The position numbers and the translations under genes were made by a program. Below are positions 56,825 to 62,351 of a stretch of DNA of 64,000 nt, piece by piece. Source of the DNA: Aequorivita antarctica (lineage in GTDB: Bacteria > Bacteroidota > Bacteroidia > Flavobacteriales > Flavobacteriaceae); contig NZ_VORT01000002.1 in the NCBI RefSeq assembly GCF_007997155.1, positions 310,001 to 374,000 on the forward strand, read 5' to 3'. The notes beneath the pieces are model-generated. The model worked only from the letters and a program-made list of their open reading frames with translations, was not told where the DNA came from and ran no database searches. The number at the start of each line of letters is the position of its first letter. The stretch's first letter is position 1.

Positions 56825-58375
56825 ATGAGCGACATAAAAGTACTATGGGTAGATGACGAGATAGATTTGCTTAAACCACACATTCTTTTTCTTGAAAGCA
56901 GAAATTACAAAGTGACTACCGCACAGAGCGGTACCGATGCCTTGGAAGAAATAAAAAAGGAAACATTCGATATTGTTTTTTTAGATGAAAACATGCCAGG
57001 ACTCTCTGGACTTGAAACACTGGCGGAAATCAAGGAGCAACAAGCTTCCATTCCAGTGGTGATGATCACGAAAAGCGAAGAAGAATATATCATGGAAGAA
57101 GCTATCGGTTCCAAAATAGCCGATTACTTAATAAAACCCGTGAACCCCCACCAAATCCTTCTGAGCTTAAAAAAGAATTTGGACCACAGCAGATTGGTTT
57201 CAGAAAAAACAACTTCAAACTATCAACAGGAATTCAGAAAAATAGCAATGGATCTTTCCATGGTGAACAGTTTTGAAGAATGGAAAGACCTTTATCAAAA
57301 ATTAGTTTACTGGGAATTGGAACTTGAAAACATTGAGGATTCTGGAATGTTTGAAATTTTGGAATCGCAAAAAACAGAGGCCAATAATCAGTTCTGTAAA
57401 TTTATTGACAAAAATTACCCAAAATGGTTTGAAGATCCAAGCGAGGCTCCCACAATGTCTCATACGTTATTCAAAGAAAAAATACAGCCACATTTACAGC
57501 AAGGAACACCTACTCTATTAGTGGTTGTGGACAATTTAAGATTTGATCAATGGAAAGCTTTTGAGCCAACGATTGCAAATATTTATAAAAAAACCAACGA
57601 AGATCTTTTCTGCAGTATTTTGCCCACAGCTACCCAATATGCTCGAAATGCTATTTTTTCTGGCCTTATGCCAAGTGATATGGAAAAATTACATCCCGAC
57701 CTTTGGCTGAACGATACTGAGGAAGGCGGGAAAAACATGAAAGAAGAAGAGTTTTTGGCCGCCCAGCTAAAACGCCTCGGTTTATCATTAAATTGGAGTT
57801 ATCATAAAATTTCAAGTTTAAAGCAAGGAAAAAAACTTGTAGAAAACTTCAAAAGCCATAAAGACGAAGATTTAACTGTAGTGGTCTATAACTTTGTGGA
57901 TATGCTGTCCCACTCAAAAACTGAAATGGAGGTTATTAAGGAATTGGCTTCCACAGATAAATCATACCGCTCCTTAACTCAAAGCTGGTTTAAAAACTCG
58001 CCACTGCTAGAGGTTATTCAACAAGCTGCACGATTGGGTTTCAAGCTTATAATCACTACAGATCACGGAACCATTAATGTAAAAAACCCTTCAAAAGTAA
58101 TCGGCGATAAAAACACCAGTCTTAATCTTCGTTACAAAACAGGGAAGAGTTTAACGTATGAAGACAAAGAGGTTTTGGCGGCTAAAGACCCTAAGTCCAT
58201 TTGTTTACCTACGATTAATATGAGTAGTTCATTTATATTTGCCAAGAGTGATTATTTCTTTGCATACCCAAACAACTATAATCATTATGTAAGTTATTAC
58301 AGAAACACCTACCAGCACGGGGGAGTTTCTTTGGAAGAAATGATAATTCCTTTTGCAGTCTTAACACCAAGATAA
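56825..58375 (+). CDS. porX: Type IX secretion system response regulator/PglZ phosphodiesterase
   Basis: 516 residues. Receiver domain 1-120 with Asp54 (VFLDENMPG), Thr82 and Lys104, VDDE acid pocket. Residues ~160-516 form a PglZ domain with alkaline-phosphatase-like metal sites (LVVVDNLRFDQWKAF, ITTDHGTINVKNP). PorX with PorY/SigP regulates T9SS in Porphyromonas and relatives; no kinase or T9SS genes are adjacent here. tsaE follows 87 bases on, the conserved Flavobacteria order. Confidence 0.93.
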   Translation: MSDIKVLWVDDEIDLLKPHILFLESRNYKVTTAQSGTDALEEIKKETFDIVFLDENMPGLSGLETLAEIKEQQASIPVVMITKSEEEYIMEEAIGSKIADYLIKPVNPHQILLSLKKNLDHSRLVSEKTTSNYQQEFRKIAMDLSMVNSFEEWKDLYQKLVYWELELENIEDSGMFEILESQKTEANNQFCKFIDKNYPKWFEDPSEAPTMSHTLFKEKIQPHLQQGTPTLLVVVDNLRFDQWKAFEPTIANIYKKTNEDLFCSILPTATQYARNAIFSGLMPSDMEKLHPDLWLNDTEEGGKNMKEEEFLAAQLKRLGLSLNWSYHKISSLKQGKKLVENFKSHKDEDLTVVVYNFVDMLSHSKTEMEVIKELASTDKSYRSLTQSWFKNSPLLEVIQQAARLGFKLIITTDHGTINVKNPSKVIGDKNTSLNLRYKTGKSLTYEDKEVLAAKDPKSICLPTINMSSSFIFAKSDYFFAYPNNYNHYVSYYRNTYQHGGVSLEEMIIPFAVLTPR

Positions 58376-58462: not shown

Positions 58463-58876
58463 ATGGAAATAACATACACCCAAAACGAAATTTCCGAAGT
58501 TGCTGAACAAATCCTGACAGCATCAGCATCAAATATATTCCTACTTTATGGAGAAATGGGGGTAGGCAAAACCACACTCATTAAGGAAATTGTAAGGCAA
58601 CTTGGGGTTCTTGAATTATCTGGAAGCCCTTCCTTTTCAATTGTAAATGAATATGAGGCTAAAGATGGTGTAGTGTACCACTTTGATTTTTATAGAATTA
58701 CTAATATAGAGGAAGCTTATGATATTGGAGTGGAAGATTATTTTTACAGTGGAAATTTTATTTTTATAGAATGGCCTGAGAAAATAATCGAATTGTTACC
58801 CGAAAGTGCAAATAGCATATATATTATAAAAAATAATAACGGAAGTAGAACCTTAAAATTAATGCCCGTGAAGTAA
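58463..58876 (+). CDS. tsaE: tRNA threonylcarbamoyladenosine biosynthesis ATPase
   Basis: 137 residues. Walker A LYGEMGVGKTTL (29-40), SPSFSIVNEY, and IEWPEKI motif. Works with TsaB/C/D. Confidence 0.92.
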   Translation: MEITYTQNEISEVAEQILTASASNIFLLYGEMGVGKTTLIKEIVRQLGVLELSGSPSFSIVNEYEAKDGVVYHFDFYRITNIEEAYDIGVEDYFYSGNFIFIEWPEKIIELLPESANSIYIIKNNNGSRTLKLMPVK

Positions 58877-59015: not shown

Positions 59016-59023
59016 CAGTAGGT
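59016..59023 (+). promoter_or_regulatory. -7 box TAGGTTTG of the first lipoprotein/membrane pair
   Basis: Matches TAnnTTTG 43 bases before the lipoprotein ATG. The following segment ATATTAACCTCACAAAA-CTTAT...ATGAAAA is nearly identical to that before the second pair at 60006. Confidence 0.5.
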
Positions 59024-59058
59024 TTGGTGTAATATTAACCTCACAAAACTTATTTATT

Positions 59059-59199
59059 ATGAAAACAGTAAAGTACTTATTTATCGCAGCAATTTTTTCA
59101 TTAGGAACTTTAGCTTCTTGTACCCCAGAAAGCATCCAGGATGAACAAACACCCCAACAGATCAACAAAGCGGACATCATCGTACCTCGTAACGGGTAG
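59059..59199 (+). CDS. 46-residue lipoprotein, copy 1
   Basis: MKTVKYLFIAAIFSLGTLASC with lipobox LASC (Cys21), then TPESIQDEQTPQQINKADII. Very like copy 2 at 60045 (same length, same CTPExIQDEQTPQQI core). Its 3' 59 bases overlap the next gene in a different frame. A longer in-frame opening from 58879 is not preferred because the ATG at 59059 begins a proper signal peptide. Small CTP.. lipoproteins in this genomic position are common in Flavobacteriaceae. Function unknown. Confidence 0.75.
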   Translation: MKTVKYLFIAAIFSLGTLASCTPESIQDEQTPQQINKADIIVPRNG

Positions 59200-59653
59200 T
59201 ATTATAGCTCTTATTATAGCGGCTACGCCCTATATATTTTATTCTTATGAAAGTTTCCCAAAAGAACAGACTTGGGAAACTTTCTTTTTTACCTATCATT
59301 CCAATTGGTACAAGATGGTGTATGTGTCCGTATGGACAATGATGGGGAAATTCGTTCCCTTATTACTGCTCATTATCTGGTTTATTACATGTAAACATTG
59401 GTGGTACCATGTTATTTTGATACCTATCGGAATGTTTGCCTTTCAGCTTTTCAGTGTAATAAATGACGATGCTAGTTTTGTAGACGAGGTTGAAATCTGG
59501 TGGCTTTTCCCTATAATGTTGGTTATTATTCCGTTGGTTTATCTCATAAGAGCCCAGCTATCAAACAAATTGTTGGGCAAAGATTTAAAAAGTTTTGAAG
59601 AAGATTTGGTAACCAAAAAGAACCTTTGGCAACAGATCAAAGATCTTTTTTGA
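59141..59653 (+). CDS. Four-helix membrane protein, copy 1
   Basis: 170 residues. TM helices near 15-36, 66-84, 90-110 and 124-142, with WETFFFTYHSNWYK between the first two and TCKHWW after the second; charged C-terminal KSFEEDLVTKKNLWQQIKDLF. No named family was recognised. It starts inside copy 1 of the lipoprotein gene (59-base overlap). Paralogue of copy 2: shared ATPYIFYSYESF/ACTPLIYYAYESF, FFTCKHWW, SFEE.L...WQQI.DLF. Confidence 0.8.
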   Translation: MNKHPNRSTKRTSSYLVTGSIIALIIAATPYIFYSYESFPKEQTWETFFFTYHSNWYKMVYVSVWTMMGKFVPLLLLIIWFITCKHWWYHVILIPIGMFAFQLFSVINDDASFVDEVEIWWLFPIMLVIIPLVYLIRAQLSNKLLGKDLKSFEEDLVTKKNLWQQIKDLF

Positions 59654-59891
59654 TTCACCGCTTTTATTCAATATCAAATTTAATATGTACCTTAGTGCGT
59701 TGTTATTTTTGTGAAATAACAATTTATAAATTACAACTGCTGTCACAAAAAAATGATATTATATCATAAATTCCTTGAGATAGCATTAAATAAAAACCTC
59801 AAAACTAACTAAGATACTAACTAAAAAACTAGAAGCAAATCAACCAATAATTGCCGGTGAAATAAAAAATATAATTACTGCGTTATTTGAA

Positions 59892-59909
59892 GTGTTAAGG
59901 TTTTAACAC
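59892..59909. repeat. Perfect 7-bp inverted repeat
   Basis: GTGTTAA-GGTT-TTAACAC; operator-like, not followed by a T-run. Unassigned. Confidence 0.45.
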
Positions 59910-59972
59910 CAATTTGAAGATTAGAATGCATTTCAAAGCATTTTATTGCAGAATAACCTGTAAAGATACCAT

Positions 59973-60000
59973 AAACTTAATTATTATGTTTAAGTTTTTT
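59973..60000 (+). terminator. Hairpin AAACTTAA/TTAAGTTT with T-run
   Basis: Perfect 8-bp stem, 9-base loop, then TTT. Positioned upstream of the second promoter box, so it could end copy 1 transcripts. AT-rich, weak. Confidence 0.45.
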
Positions 60001-60005
60001 GATTG

Positions 60006-60013
60006 TAAGTTTG
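60006..60013 (+). promoter_or_regulatory. -7 box TAAGTTTG of the second pair
   Basis: TAnnTTTG match 39 bases before copy 2 ATG; shares the flanking ATATTAACCTCACAAAA word with copy 1. Confidence 0.5.
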
Positions 60014-60044
60014 GACCATATTAACCTCACAAAAACTTATTATT

Positions 60045-60185
60045 ATGAAAAACCTAAAACTTATTATCGTAGCCGCAATTTTTGCCGCAGGACTTTTTGC
60101 TTCTTGCACCCCAGAAGGAATCCAAGATGAACAAACCCCACAACAAATCGACGTCAGGACGGTTTCAGTTCCGCCAGCCGGATAA
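60045..60185 (+). CDS. 46-residue lipoprotein, copy 2
   Basis: MKNLKLIIVAAIFAAGLFASC with lipobox FASC (Cys21), then TPEGIQDEQTPQQIDVRTVS. Same length as copy 1. Overlaps the following membrane gene by exactly 59 bases in the same relative frame as copy 1. Not detectable at a 60-codon length cutoff. Confidence 0.78.
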   Translation: MKNLKLIIVAAIFAAGLFASCTPEGIQDEQTPQQIDVRTVSVPPAG

Positions 60186-60660
60186 AAAAAGCCTTATACA
60201 GGGAGGCATTATCGTTTTTATAATGGCTTGCACTCCTTTAATATACTATGCATATGAAAGTTTCTCAAGCGATACTCAAGTTTGGGAAACTTCTTTTTTT
60301 ACCTTCACAACAAAATACCCTTCTCTTTATCAATACGCATGGTTTTTAACCGGTAAGGTTATTCCCGTAATTTTATTGCTTATATGGTTTTTTACATGTA
60401 AACACTGGTGGCACTGGATAATTCTCGTTCCTCTGTCCATGTATGTTTTTCAATTATTCAATATTTTAAAGCAAAATTTAAATGCTGATGAAGTTGAAAT
60501 AATATATGTAATACCAGTAATGATGGTAGTTATTCCATCTGTTTATTTGATTCGCGCCAAACTTTTCAGCCAAATGAGAGCAGACGACCTAAAGTCCTTT
60601 GAAGAGGAACTTCTCCAAAGAAGAACTTTTTGGCAACAAATAAGAGACCTGTTTCGGTAA
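60127..60660 (+). CDS. Four-helix membrane protein, copy 2
   Basis: 177 residues from ATG 60127 (MNKPHNKST); an upstream in-frame ATG (60082) lies deeper inside the lipoprotein gene and is not preferred. Same topology and motifs as copy 1 (ACTPLIYYAYESF, VWETSFFT, FFTCKHWWHW, KSFEEELLQRRTFWQQIRDLF). ald follows 63 bases on, across an inverted repeat CCGTA/TACGG at 60691-60706. Confidence 0.82.
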   Translation: MNKPHNKSTSGRFQFRQPDKKSLIQGGIIVFIMACTPLIYYAYESFSSDTQVWETSFFTFTTKYPSLYQYAWFLTGKVIPVILLLIWFFTCKHWWHWIILVPLSMYVFQLFNILKQNLNADEVEIIYVIPVMMVVIPSVYLIRAKLFSQMRADDLKSFEEELLQRRTFWQQIRDLFR

Positions 60661-60723: not shown

Positions 60724-61923
60724 ATGCCAAAACCAAAAACACCTTTCACAATTGCACAACTGCTTCCTCAAGAAGAAACCCTTGAAATAGCAAAACAAAG
60801 AGGAGAACTATATATAGGTATTCCCAAAGAAACCTATTTCCAGGAAAAACGAATTTGTCTTACTCCAGATGCGGTTAATGCCATTGTGAGCAATGGCCAC
60901 AGGGTTTTAATTGAAAAAGGAGCCGGAAATGAAGCAGGGTTTTCAGACCAAGATTACTCAGAAGCCGGCGCACAATTGACTGAGGATACAAAAAAAGTAT
61001 TTGGCTGCCCAATGGTCCTAAAAGTAGAGCCCCCTACCCTGGAAGAATTGGAAATAATTAAACCAAAAACAGTACTCATTTCGGCACTTCAATTAAAAAC
61101 CAGGCAAAAATCTTACTTTGATGCGCTCTCAAAAAAGAAAATTACCGCTCTTGCTTTTGAGTTTATCAAAGACGAAGATCACAGTTATCCTGCCGTTAAG
61201 GCTTTAAGCGAAATTGCGGGAACGGCCTCTGTACTGATTGCTGCAGAGTTAATGGTTAATGCAAAAAAGGGAAATGGCCTTCTTTTTGGAAATATTAGTG
61301 GCGTCCCTCCTATTGAAGTTGTTGTAATTGGTGCAGGGACTGTAGGCGAATTTGCGGTTCGGTCTGCCCTTGGCTTGGGTGCAAACGTTAAAGTTTTTGA
61401 TAGCTCCATTACCAAATTAAGAACAATTCAAACGAATGTTAACCGTATTCTGTACACTTCTACTGTACAACCAAAAAATTTGATGAAAGCTCTTTTGCGC
61501 TGTGATGTTGCCATTGGCGCTGTCCGCGGGCATAATCGAGCACCCATAATCGTTACGGAAGAAATGGTGCGCAATATGAAAAAAGGAGCGGTAATTATAG
61601 ATGTTTGTGTAGATATGGGAGGTTGTTTTGAAACGACCGAAATGACCAGCCACGACAGCCCAACAATCATAAAACATGACGTGATCCATTATGGGGTACC
61701 CAATATCCCCGCGCGTTATCCCAAAACCGCCTCTATTTCAATAAGTAATATCTTCACACCCTATATTTTGGAAATTGCCGAAAGTGGCGGACTCGAAAAT
61801 GCCATTCGTTTTGATAACGGTTTAAAAAATGGGTTGTACTTTTACCGCGGAATTTTGACCAATAAGGCAGTTGCAGATTGGTTTGATATGCCTTATAGCG
61901 ATCTTAATTTATTGATTTTTTAA
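60724..61923 (+). CDS. ald: Alanine dehydrogenase
   Basis: 399 residues. AlaDH/PNT fold: GIPKETYFQEKRICLTPDAV at the start, a Rossmann segment VVVIGAGTVGEFAVRSALGLGANVKVFD, and catalytic region RAPIIVTEEMV/VIIDVCVDMGGCFET. NAD-dependent alanine-pyruvate interconversion. Conserved neighbour of porX-tsaE. Confidence 0.9.
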   Translation: MPKPKTPFTIAQLLPQEETLEIAKQRGELYIGIPKETYFQEKRICLTPDAVNAIVSNGHRVLIEKGAGNEAGFSDQDYSEAGAQLTEDTKKVFGCPMVLKVEPPTLEELEIIKPKTVLISALQLKTRQKSYFDALSKKKITALAFEFIKDEDHSYPAVKALSEIAGTASVLIAAELMVNAKKGNGLLFGNISGVPPIEVVVIGAGTVGEFAVRSALGLGANVKVFDSSITKLRTIQTNVNRILYTSTVQPKNLMKALLRCDVAIGAVRGHNRAPIIVTEEMVRNMKKGAVIIDVCVDMGGCFETTEMTSHDSPTIIKHDVIHYGVPNIPARYPKTASISISNIFTPYILEIAESGGLENAIRFDNGLKNGLYFYRGILTNKAVADWFDMPYSDLNLLIF

Positions 61924-61973: not shown

Positions 61974-62351
61974 ATGAAGTTAGCATACCGATTGGTCTAT
62001 TTTTCAGGAGGTTTTATAGTTGGAATTGCCCTGCTGTTTTTTATTCTGAGCGGAAAAAAAACATCTTGTGCCTACGGTTTGGATGCAAGAACCCTTAAAA
62101 ACATCCGACTGAAAGAACGCGCCTTTTCTGAAAAAACACTAGCAGTTCTCCGGGAAAATCAAATGGATACCTCGGCGATTTCAACTTTATTGGAAGACGG
62201 CGATGTAGTGTTCTCTGAAAGCAATACCAATCTGGATTCCTGCAAACAATATGTTGTTGAAGGGAGAATTTTGGAAAAAAACCTGAAAATCAGAATTGAA
62301 AATTGCGACAGCTTAGCAACCGTCACCGAAGCAAACATTATTCAGAAGTAA
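61974..62351 (+). CDS. DUF4258-like membrane-anchored protein
   Basis: 125 residues. N-terminal helix (7-27), then SCAYGLDARTLKNIRLKERAFSE, DGDVVFSESNTNLDSCKQYVV and IRIENCDSLATV. The conserved Cys and CAYGxDARTLKNIR pattern match DUF4258 proteins that follow ald in Flavobacteria. Function unknown. Confidence 0.72.
   Translation: MKLAYRLVYFSGGFIVGIALLFFILSGKKTSCAYGLDARTLKNIRLKERAFSEKTLAVLRENQMDTSAISTLLEDGDVVFSESNTNLDSCKQYVVEGRILEKNLKIRIENCDSLATVTEANIIQK

Follow-up and report, generated by a model that had tools for sequence, protein, structure and literature searches.

A long, constant-phase overlap between a small exported-protein gene and a membrane-protein gene in Flavobacteriaceae

LP–MP is an overlapping gene pair made of two unnamed protein families, described here from a 64,000-nucleotide (nt) stretch of the Aequorivita antarctica genome (NCBI RefSeq assembly GCF_007997155.1, contig NZ_VORT01000002.1, positions 310,001 to 374,000 of the forward strand; hereafter the window) and compared across Flavobacteriaceae. 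The upstream gene, LP, encodes a small exported protein or lipoprotein, and the downstream gene, MP, encodes a predicted membrane protein. Among 213 pairs collected for this analysis, 162 carry an MP ATG inside LP, 5 offer an alternative start only, and in 46 the two genes are separate; all 162 overlapping copies place MP in the same +1 phase. We regard this genetic architecture, as read from the sequences, as very probable. The role proposed below for the two proteins is held with much less confidence.

Two tandem units in Aequorivita antarctica

The window contains, in order, PorX, TsaE, two tandem LP–MP units, and a gene of the alanine dehydrogenase family. Each unit consists of a TAnnTTTG box, a near-identical leader, a 46-codon LP, and an MP that begins within LP, at an ATG in the +1 frame. 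In unit 1, the promoter-like box (TAGGTTTG, 59019–59026, plus strand, as are all features given here) stands 40 nt before the start of LP1 (59059–59199), which encodes a 46-residue lipoprotein with a lipobox Cys21 and the C-terminal sequence INKADIIVPRNG, and ends in TAG. MP1 (59141–59653) encodes a 170-residue membrane protein with four long helices in its AlphaFold2 model. The two genes share 59 nt (59141–59199), with the LP stop falling within the MP codons for Gly-Ser, and the next Met of MP1 is residue 59, behind helix 1. In unit 2, the box (TAAGTTTG, 60006–60013) lies 39 nt before LP2 (60045–60185), again a 46-residue lipoprotein with a lipobox Cys21, here with the C-terminal sequence IDVRTVSVPPAG. 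MP2 (60127–60660) encodes 177 residues with 49% identity to MP1 and falls in a different clade of the MP tree. Its overlap with LP2 (60127–60185) is likewise 59 nt in the phase of unit 1; the LP stop ends 16 nt ahead of the MP Gly-Gly codons, and the next Met is residue 33, within the first helix predicted by alignment to MP1.

These coordinates bear out the initial annotation, made from this DNA alone, which had described tandem units of a 46-residue lipoprotein overlapping a four-helix membrane protein by 59 nt; the box and the near-identical leader that it had reported are also present in both units. The LP and leader stretches form direct repeats with a spacing of 986 nt and identities of 80% and 83%. 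A search of the whole genome found no MP match beyond MP1 and MP2.

Overlap geometry and the internal MP start

Homologous loci were collected with a contig scan using MP1, from which the best 80 of 88 confirmed loci were analysed (L003 and L082 being cut off by contig ends). With 76 further stretches added, the set comprised 192 loci including the window and 220 short MP copies, some species being represented twice. A hidden Markov model (HMM) of LP, built from 19 seeds and grown over three rounds, matched just upstream of 213 of the 220 MP copies and before none of 12 long MP-relative frames.

Measured from the first ATG, the overlaps span 47–98 nt in steps of 3. A length of 59 nt recurs in 89 of the 162 overlapping copies, followed by 71 (15 copies), 53 (10), 62 (9), 74 (7), 56 (6), and others; overlaps of 62–98 nt number 54 by the first ATG and 32 by the last. 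Conservation of both phase and length had been proposed initially, and of these the phase has held throughout while the length has not been fixed. Separate genes occupy the three phases 19, 12, and 15 times (p 0.45 against equal use). Lipoprotein frames broken beside a persisting MP, or a freely varying phase, had been named as observations that would speak against the proposal: separate copies and one broken LP frame (L061) do occur, and free phase within the overlaps does not.

The MP ATG spans two LP codons, xAT-Gxx, which encode DE in 77 of the 162 copies, DG in 19, ND in 17, NE in 15, DD in 10, DA in 7, and other dipeptides in the remainder. In the commonest layout (termed d=5; 78 copies, window unit 1 included), the LP stop runs 5 nt into the MP Gly-Ser codons. 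In 71 of these 78 copies, the MP frame is free of ATG, GTG, and TTG all the way between the LP stop and the last codon of helix 1, 21 codons from the Gly codon; the remaining 7 contain GTG or TTG only, and none of the 78 has a later start ahead of the Gly codon. Because no later start precedes the end of helix 1 in those 71 copies, the codons indicate that MP must start inside LP in this layout.

Selection on the two reading frames

Within the overlap, 53 independent sister pairs differ at 0.159, 0.127, and 0.246 of sites at LP codon positions 1, 2, and 3, respectively, which is the order of LP-coding sequence. Estimates of the ratio of nonsynonymous to synonymous change (dN/dS, omega) from joint site classes gave, at kappa 1, 2, and 4, omega_LP of 0.43, 0.56, and 0.72 and omega_MP of 0.72, 0.94, and 1.21. 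Three divergence bins gave omega_LP 0.27–0.73 and omega_MP 0.53–1.02, and all four pair sets at kappa 1–4 spanned 0.27–0.73 and 0.53–1.21. The values point to purifying selection on the LP frame and to an MP tail mostly free of it, with weak constraint possible. The frame-specific dN/dS comparison suggested at the outset has therefore given a divided answer, with clear amino-acid selection on LP and weak or no selection on MP. At kappa 2, omega_LP and omega_MP are 0.46 and 0.91 in Aequorivita copy 2 (9 pairs), and 0.53 and 0.86 (15 pairs) and 0.70 and 0.87 (13 pairs) in LPs without Cys.

When 154 distinct overlapping LPs were recoded with random synonymous codons, the MP frame stayed open in 38% of the draws on average, and the ATG survived in 68%. 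The overlap-encoded MP tail has a mean net charge of 4.08, compared with 4.19 after recoding; since recoded tails are about as basic, the basic MP tail is a by-product of LP amino acids and codon usage. The overlap itself lies beyond chance, given an open frame in just 38% of recodings and a 59-nt length that recurs in more than half of the overlapping copies. Of 36 separate LPs, 13 have an open +1 frame, where 12.0 would be expected; openness at chance level indicates that separation of the genes lifts the second-frame constraint.

A separate observation concerns third codon positions, which differ at 0.257 in the LP-only part before the MP start and at 0.418 in the MP-only part. The 5′ part of LP thus appears to be under an extra, unexplained constraint.

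Distribution and history

A search with a 34-row MP alignment found MP relatives in 276 of 397 Flavobacteriaceae genomes, representing 177 of 237 genera. Wider draws gave MP matches in 19 of 296 genomes from the order and 12 of 395 from the phylum, all of them Flavobacteriaceae except G398 and G412. By record title, the 80 scanned loci likewise belong to Flavobacteriaceae, apart from L073, a metagenome-assembled genome titled Cytophagaceae. The fetched stretches contain TsaE near MP at 79 of the 80 loci, alanine dehydrogenase at 78, and PorX at 73. The comparison of the porX–ald interval across the family, proposed in the initial annotation, shows that the pair is not special to this genome and runs through the family; the two window copies fall in two MP clades.

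Among the 20 MP-negative family genomes listed, 13 have assemblies of 2.3 Mb or smaller, and 19 have no LP match better than 1e-6; the sole such match (G022) is an unrelated basic protein. The members listed of one genus (g127) lack MP, bar one weak match with a stop (G127). Another genome, G123, has a solitary lipoprotein without the C-terminal motif described below. G396, which is outside the MP-positive list, encodes an LP-like protein overlapping a 171-residue membrane protein by 62 nt in the usual phase, the resemblance to MP being judged by eye. A whole-genome LP search matched 364 of the 397 genomes at E 0.01; many matches are weak and resemble any lipoprotein signal, and the search was not used as a measure of presence.

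The MP tree (188 rows, LG+G4) carries support from the SH-like approximate likelihood ratio test (SH-aLRT) only and is drawn with a midpoint root, the true root not being inferred. On this tree, the overlapping and separate states change at least four times. Layout d=5 is found in Kordia, Neptunitalea, and Pustulibacterium on one side of the midpoint and in Aequorivita, Mesonia, and Gramella on the other, which suggests one origin of the overlap with later separations. L034 and L084, which share the same LP, retain an apparent decayed LP at the former overlapping place (14.5 bits, compared with 8.6 for the best shuffled interval); no remnant of an overlapping LP was found in the other separate copies when 46 were tested with 20 shuffles each. 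Window copy 2 belongs to a set of 30 tree rows (support 99), and copy 1 groups with Mesonia and Altibacter in another, of 23 rows (support 95). All 15 loci titled Aequorivita have both copies in tandem, as do L088 and L091 (same genus as the window), L019, and the window. Three MP copies are present in L035, L043 (Kordia), L092, and L112, and one in L018 and L020.

Expression signals

A TAnnTTTG box is present in 174 of 197 LP upstream regions of 120 nt, compared with 19.3 expected by shuffling, and mostly lies 36–40 nt before the LP start; most LPs therefore appear to carry their own promoter-like box. Bacteroidota are described as lacking Shine-Dalgarno sites, and in Flavobacterium johnsoniae A at −3, −6, −12, and −13 together with low mRNA structure favours initiation (excerpt of PMC6847099). 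Counted over these four positions in 154 overlapping pairs and 34 separate ones, favourable A averages 3.22 at LP starts, 1.77 at internal MP starts, and 1.47 at separate MP starts. Median folding energies at the start are −0.30 (LP) and −3.20 kcal/mol (internal MP) in overlapping pairs, and −0.65 (LP) and −2.85 kcal/mol (MP) in separate pairs. The LP start thus looks strong and the MP start weak in both architectures, and LP is for that reason probably made in excess over MP in both.

Translational coupling between the two genes had been suggested from the overlap. Coupling by termination and reinitiation is described as needing very short distances (excerpt of PMC10666635) and fits badly here, because MP starts 47–98 nt before the LP stop (first ATG).

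Features of the two proteins

A lipobox is present in 89 of 162 overlapping LPs and in 42 of 46 separate ones. The other 73 overlapping LPs belong to lineages with an export signal that has no lipobox, so the lipoprotein nature emphasized initially does not extend to the family as a shared feature. Lipidation is not general, as judged from these sequences, and the shared part is a C-terminal I-D-K-x-x-I-x-x-P-x-x-G-like motif. The C-terminus reads P, then one or two residues, then G in 148 of 196 distinct LPs, and 124 of the 196 contain [IVL][DE][KR] within the last 24 residues, compared with 19.9 after shuffling. The last 13 residues have a mean charge of +1.61 (210 copies), and the motif is retained in many LPs whose gene is separate. 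Repeats of the motif unit occur in 11 of the 39 distinct separate LPs and in 0 of 157 others (Fisher p 5e-9, a value overstated because most of the 11 fall in one MP-tree clade). At six loci, two or three LP genes lie within 900 nt before one MP; one of these (G021) has six LP genes in a longer stretch. At L206:1501–2654, six LP genes that are nearly identical stand ahead of one MP at intervals of about 200 nt.

The AlphaFold2 model of MP, computed from 78 rows, has four long helices with short loops (predicted local distance difference test score 73.4, predicted template modelling score 0.58), and conservation peaks around WFFTCKHWWYHVILIP. Across 210 copies, with loops cut by a sequence rule and not by the model, the mean charge is +4.74 for the N-tail, −2.32 for loop 1, and −3.65 for loop 3 (negative in 208 of 210). 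We infer from these charges an N-in topology with the basic N-tail inside and the acidic loops outside.

Family searches with LP1, LP2, MP1, and MP2 returned nothing above cut-offs in Pfam or NCBIfam, known type IX secretion system (T9SS) families included, and no match better than E 0.017 in PHROGs. These four proteins and two long MP paralogues gave 0 matches in PADLOC (2023 library). Nothing convincing was obtained from Pfam for 78 MPs (best E 2.5e-4, DUF2070, 2 members) or for six long MP relatives, nor from NCBIfam for 52 LPs beyond 8 matches to the PG1828 family lipoprotein model (NF050142, best E 9.1e-6). For the MP sequence and model, PDB sequences gave 0 matches at E up to 1, Foldseek gave no PDB match at E ≤ 0.001 (best 2.7), and BFVD gave no match at E ≤ 0.001; the best VIA-align Z was 6.9, to mixed helical proteins and under the tool's own warning level. 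These fold-search negatives do not show the MP fold to be new. No description of the pair was found in open-licence literature searched by title and abstract start, which does not imply absence from print, and the available part of a study of conserved frame transitions (PMC3711429) does not mention it.

Exceptions, additional loci, and relatives

Seven MP copies lack an HMM match to LP. An LP-like secreted protein is visible by eye in L051, L095, and L154; the LP frame of L061 is broken in a run of T, possibly through a sequencing error; the third MP of L112 is misanchored, its genome (G353) having three LPs; and the remaining misses, L039 (−) and L165 (+), are divergent fragments. The L095 protein (1068–1400, reverse complement) is a secreted 110-residue protein in the LP position with six units of IDKFQKPPKHGFAF or nearly so. 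The L154 protein (2377–2580, reverse complement) is LP-like, has three IEKAR-TKQMIA-type units, and lies downstream of MP, not upstream.

A second, unlinked pair locus was seen in several genomes (L196, L197, L198, L199, L201, L202; about 1357–2045); in 6 of 7 regions fetched, a lipoprotein of 40–42 residues shares 50 nt, again in the usual phase, with an MP of 171–173 residues. The seventh (L203) has no ATG-started MP frame among the frames listed. MutS-like sequence, recognised by eye, is close to the second locus in L197 and L201. An envelope or secretion link had been considered conceivable from the position of the window pairs between porX–tsaE and ald. A link to secretion through the T9SS is unsupported: position is its one basis, and unlinked copies of the pair exist.

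Relatives of MP occur in other arrangements. At L200:1600–4084, four MP-like genes of 203–215 residues form a run with mutual overlaps of 1–8 nt near an alanine dehydrogenase gene, with no LP among the frames listed. Nine of the 80 loci (L032, L033, L038, L039, L040, L044, L052, L063, L082) carry, upstream of TsaE and on the minus strand, long MP relatives, mostly of 300–420 residues, in which the four-helix unit is present twice; L194 also carries a long relative.

Neighbouring genes in the window

PorX (56825–58375; NF052313, 861.7 bits, cut-off 300) and TsaE (58463–58876; TIGR00150, 103.8 bits, cut-off 60.1) precede the units. The alanine dehydrogenase family gene that follows them (60724–61923) has two Pfam domains and scores 318.6 bits with TIGR00518, under its cut-off of 391.85. 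Next comes a 125-residue protein (61974–62348) that matches nothing in NCBIfam at 1e-10 or in Pfam at 1e-5; by eye, a similar protein also follows the alanine dehydrogenase gene in L051 and L095.

Interpretation and alternative explanations

Each unit would encode two envelope proteins. LP would be a small exported peptide that, depending on lineage, is anchored at the membrane by a lipid or by its signal, or is free in the periplasm, and whose shared part is a short basic C-terminal I-D-K-x-x-I-x-x-P-x-x-G-like motif. MP would be a four-helix inner-membrane protein with its basic N-tail inside and acidic loops outside, initiating at an AUG inside LP that arises from LP codons xAT-Gxx (in most cases an Asp or Asn codon and then one for Glu, Asp, Gly, or Ala). 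The overlap may then be an old frozen state in which LP residues are selected and the +1 frame spells a basic tail adequate for MP, so that only the open frame and the AUG would need keeping. With its tail docked on the acidic outside of MP, LP may serve as a small subunit or a tethered ligand. Taken whole, this mechanism, in which an abundant, membrane-anchored periplasmic LP peptide docks on a scarcer four-helix MP partner, seems to us slightly better than an even bet; its topology, LP excess, and docking are the parts we infer. A further proposal is that LP–MP is a flavobacterial peptide system, with excess exported LP carrying a repeatable motif unit as the ligand of MP, the MP start locked in the peptide gene since early in the family, and multiplication of the ligand, by repeats or gene arrays, open to lineages that left the overlap behind. 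We advance it tentatively, as having a minority chance of being right; if true, a peptide system of I-D-K-x-x-I-x-x-P-x-x-G-like units with MP would be previously undescribed.

Several observations weigh against the docking mechanism or its premises. Both proteins are known here from their genes alone, the MP model is of moderate confidence, and charge complementarity is weak evidence for docking. No MP match was obtained in 121 of the 397 family genomes, and MP-only relatives exist. The codons by themselves do not force the internal start in the 84 copies with layouts other than d=5, among them window unit 2. Up to the end of helix 1, 22 of these copies offer a later ATG, 37 offer GTG or TTG only, and 25 offer no other start; in 17, a later start comes even ahead of the Gly-Ser codons. 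More than one ATG lies inside LP in 32 of 162 overlapping copies, and by the last ATG two of the 162 overlap by only 8 nt and one by 35 nt. Aequorivita copy 1 departs from the general selection pattern (omega_LP 0.15, omega_MP 0.30; kappa 2, 9 pairs, 28 changes), and both frames may be held there. Long phase-1 overlaps are reported to be favoured by composition (excerpt of PMC2542354), and a constant phase is expected from common descent once both frames are needed; the constancy is therefore no separate proof of function and shows one kept architecture.

Several alternatives account for part of the evidence. LP could be the precursor of a secreted peptide that acts outside its own cell, with MP exporting, processing, or sensing it. 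Known peptide precursors contain repeated units, and the repeats confined to separate LPs, the six units in L095, the LP gene arrays, and the export signal without a lipobox in 73 overlapping LPs all agree with such a role. Signalling peptides, on the other hand, tend to be strain specific, while the LP motif is alike across genera; the majority of overlapping LPs and nearly all separate ones are lipoproteins expected to stay in the membrane, nearly all repeat-bearing LPs have a Cys at the lipobox position by eye, and MP has no protease-like or transporter-like match in the Pfam and Foldseek searches. We consider a secreted signal rather unlikely. An AgrB/AgrD-like pair was also considered for its size and, set against the general features of that system, was dropped: LP has an ordinary export signal, and the Cys conserved in MP is missing in second-locus MPs (TSRNWW in L196).

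The pair might instead be a fixed-ratio expression device in which translation of LP controls that of MP through coupling or occlusion and LP matters little as a protein. Conservation of overlap and phase would suit this, as would an MP start that is weaker and more structured than the LP start. Purifying selection on LP, retention of the motif in many separate LPs, and duplication of LP genes in arrays away from MP would not, nor would the usual MP start so far before the LP stop, unlike termination-reinitiation geometry (excerpt of PMC10666635), and the device appears quite improbable. A spanin-like pair, in which an outer-membrane lipoprotein touches an inner-membrane partner across the periplasm, would explain a lipoprotein and a membrane protein whose overlapping genes are also found separated, as in phage spanins (excerpt of PMC6139136). 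Such a pair is very unlikely: the mature window LP is just 26 residues long, the MP model shows four helices with short loops, a lipobox is missing from many overlapping LPs, and the pair occupies a conserved place on the chromosome. The constant +1 phase in 162 copies could also reflect a programmed +1 frameshift that fuses LP to MP into the working form; with 46 separate copies in free phase, a variable overlap length, and a fusion whose basic MP tail would end up periplasmic, contrary to the positive-inside rule, this reading is barely credible.

Whichever role the proteins have, LP–MP defines a widespread pair of unnamed envelope proteins with an overlap that is unusually long and old and is found in most genera of one bacterial family. 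The emergence, tolerance, and loss of long overlaps could readily be studied on it, with the naturally separated versions as a control freed from the second-frame constraint. It equally suits work on internal translation initiation in bacteria whose phylum is described as lacking Shine-Dalgarno sites (excerpt of PMC6847099). Gene finders may miss LP, which is short and overlaps MP.

Comparison with known systems

The NF050142 model of PG1828 lipoproteins likewise describes a very small lipoprotein; LP2 scores 15.2 bits against it, under the cut-off of 50, and aligns over residues 1–31 only. Two-component phage spanins (Rz/Rz1) also combine a small lipoprotein with an inner-membrane protein encoded in different frames, in overlapped and separated architectures (228 and 118 of 528 systems, respectively; excerpt of PMC6139136). 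The window LPs share the small-lipoprotein character. LP–MP differs in having the lipoprotein gene first, a four-helix MP with short loops in its model instead of a single N-terminal helix and a long periplasmic domain, no phage lysis cassette, a chromosomal site kept across genera, and a lipobox in only part of the LPs. Short coupled overlaps of 1–4 nt resemble LP–MP in joining adjacent genes whose products may form a complex; in LP–MP the distance between MP start and LP stop is usually far longer, and termination-reinitiation is unexpected at it (excerpt of PMC10666635). A survey of 338 genomes judged 0 of 715 co-directional overlaps longer than 60 bp to be real, and the longest real one it could identify was holD-rimI, at up to 56 bp in some enterobacteria (excerpt of PMC2478687). 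Like holD-rimI, LP–MP is a same-strand overlap conserved among orthologues; it exceeds 56 nt in 143 of 162 overlapping copies by the first ATG, and in 134 by the last, across a family.

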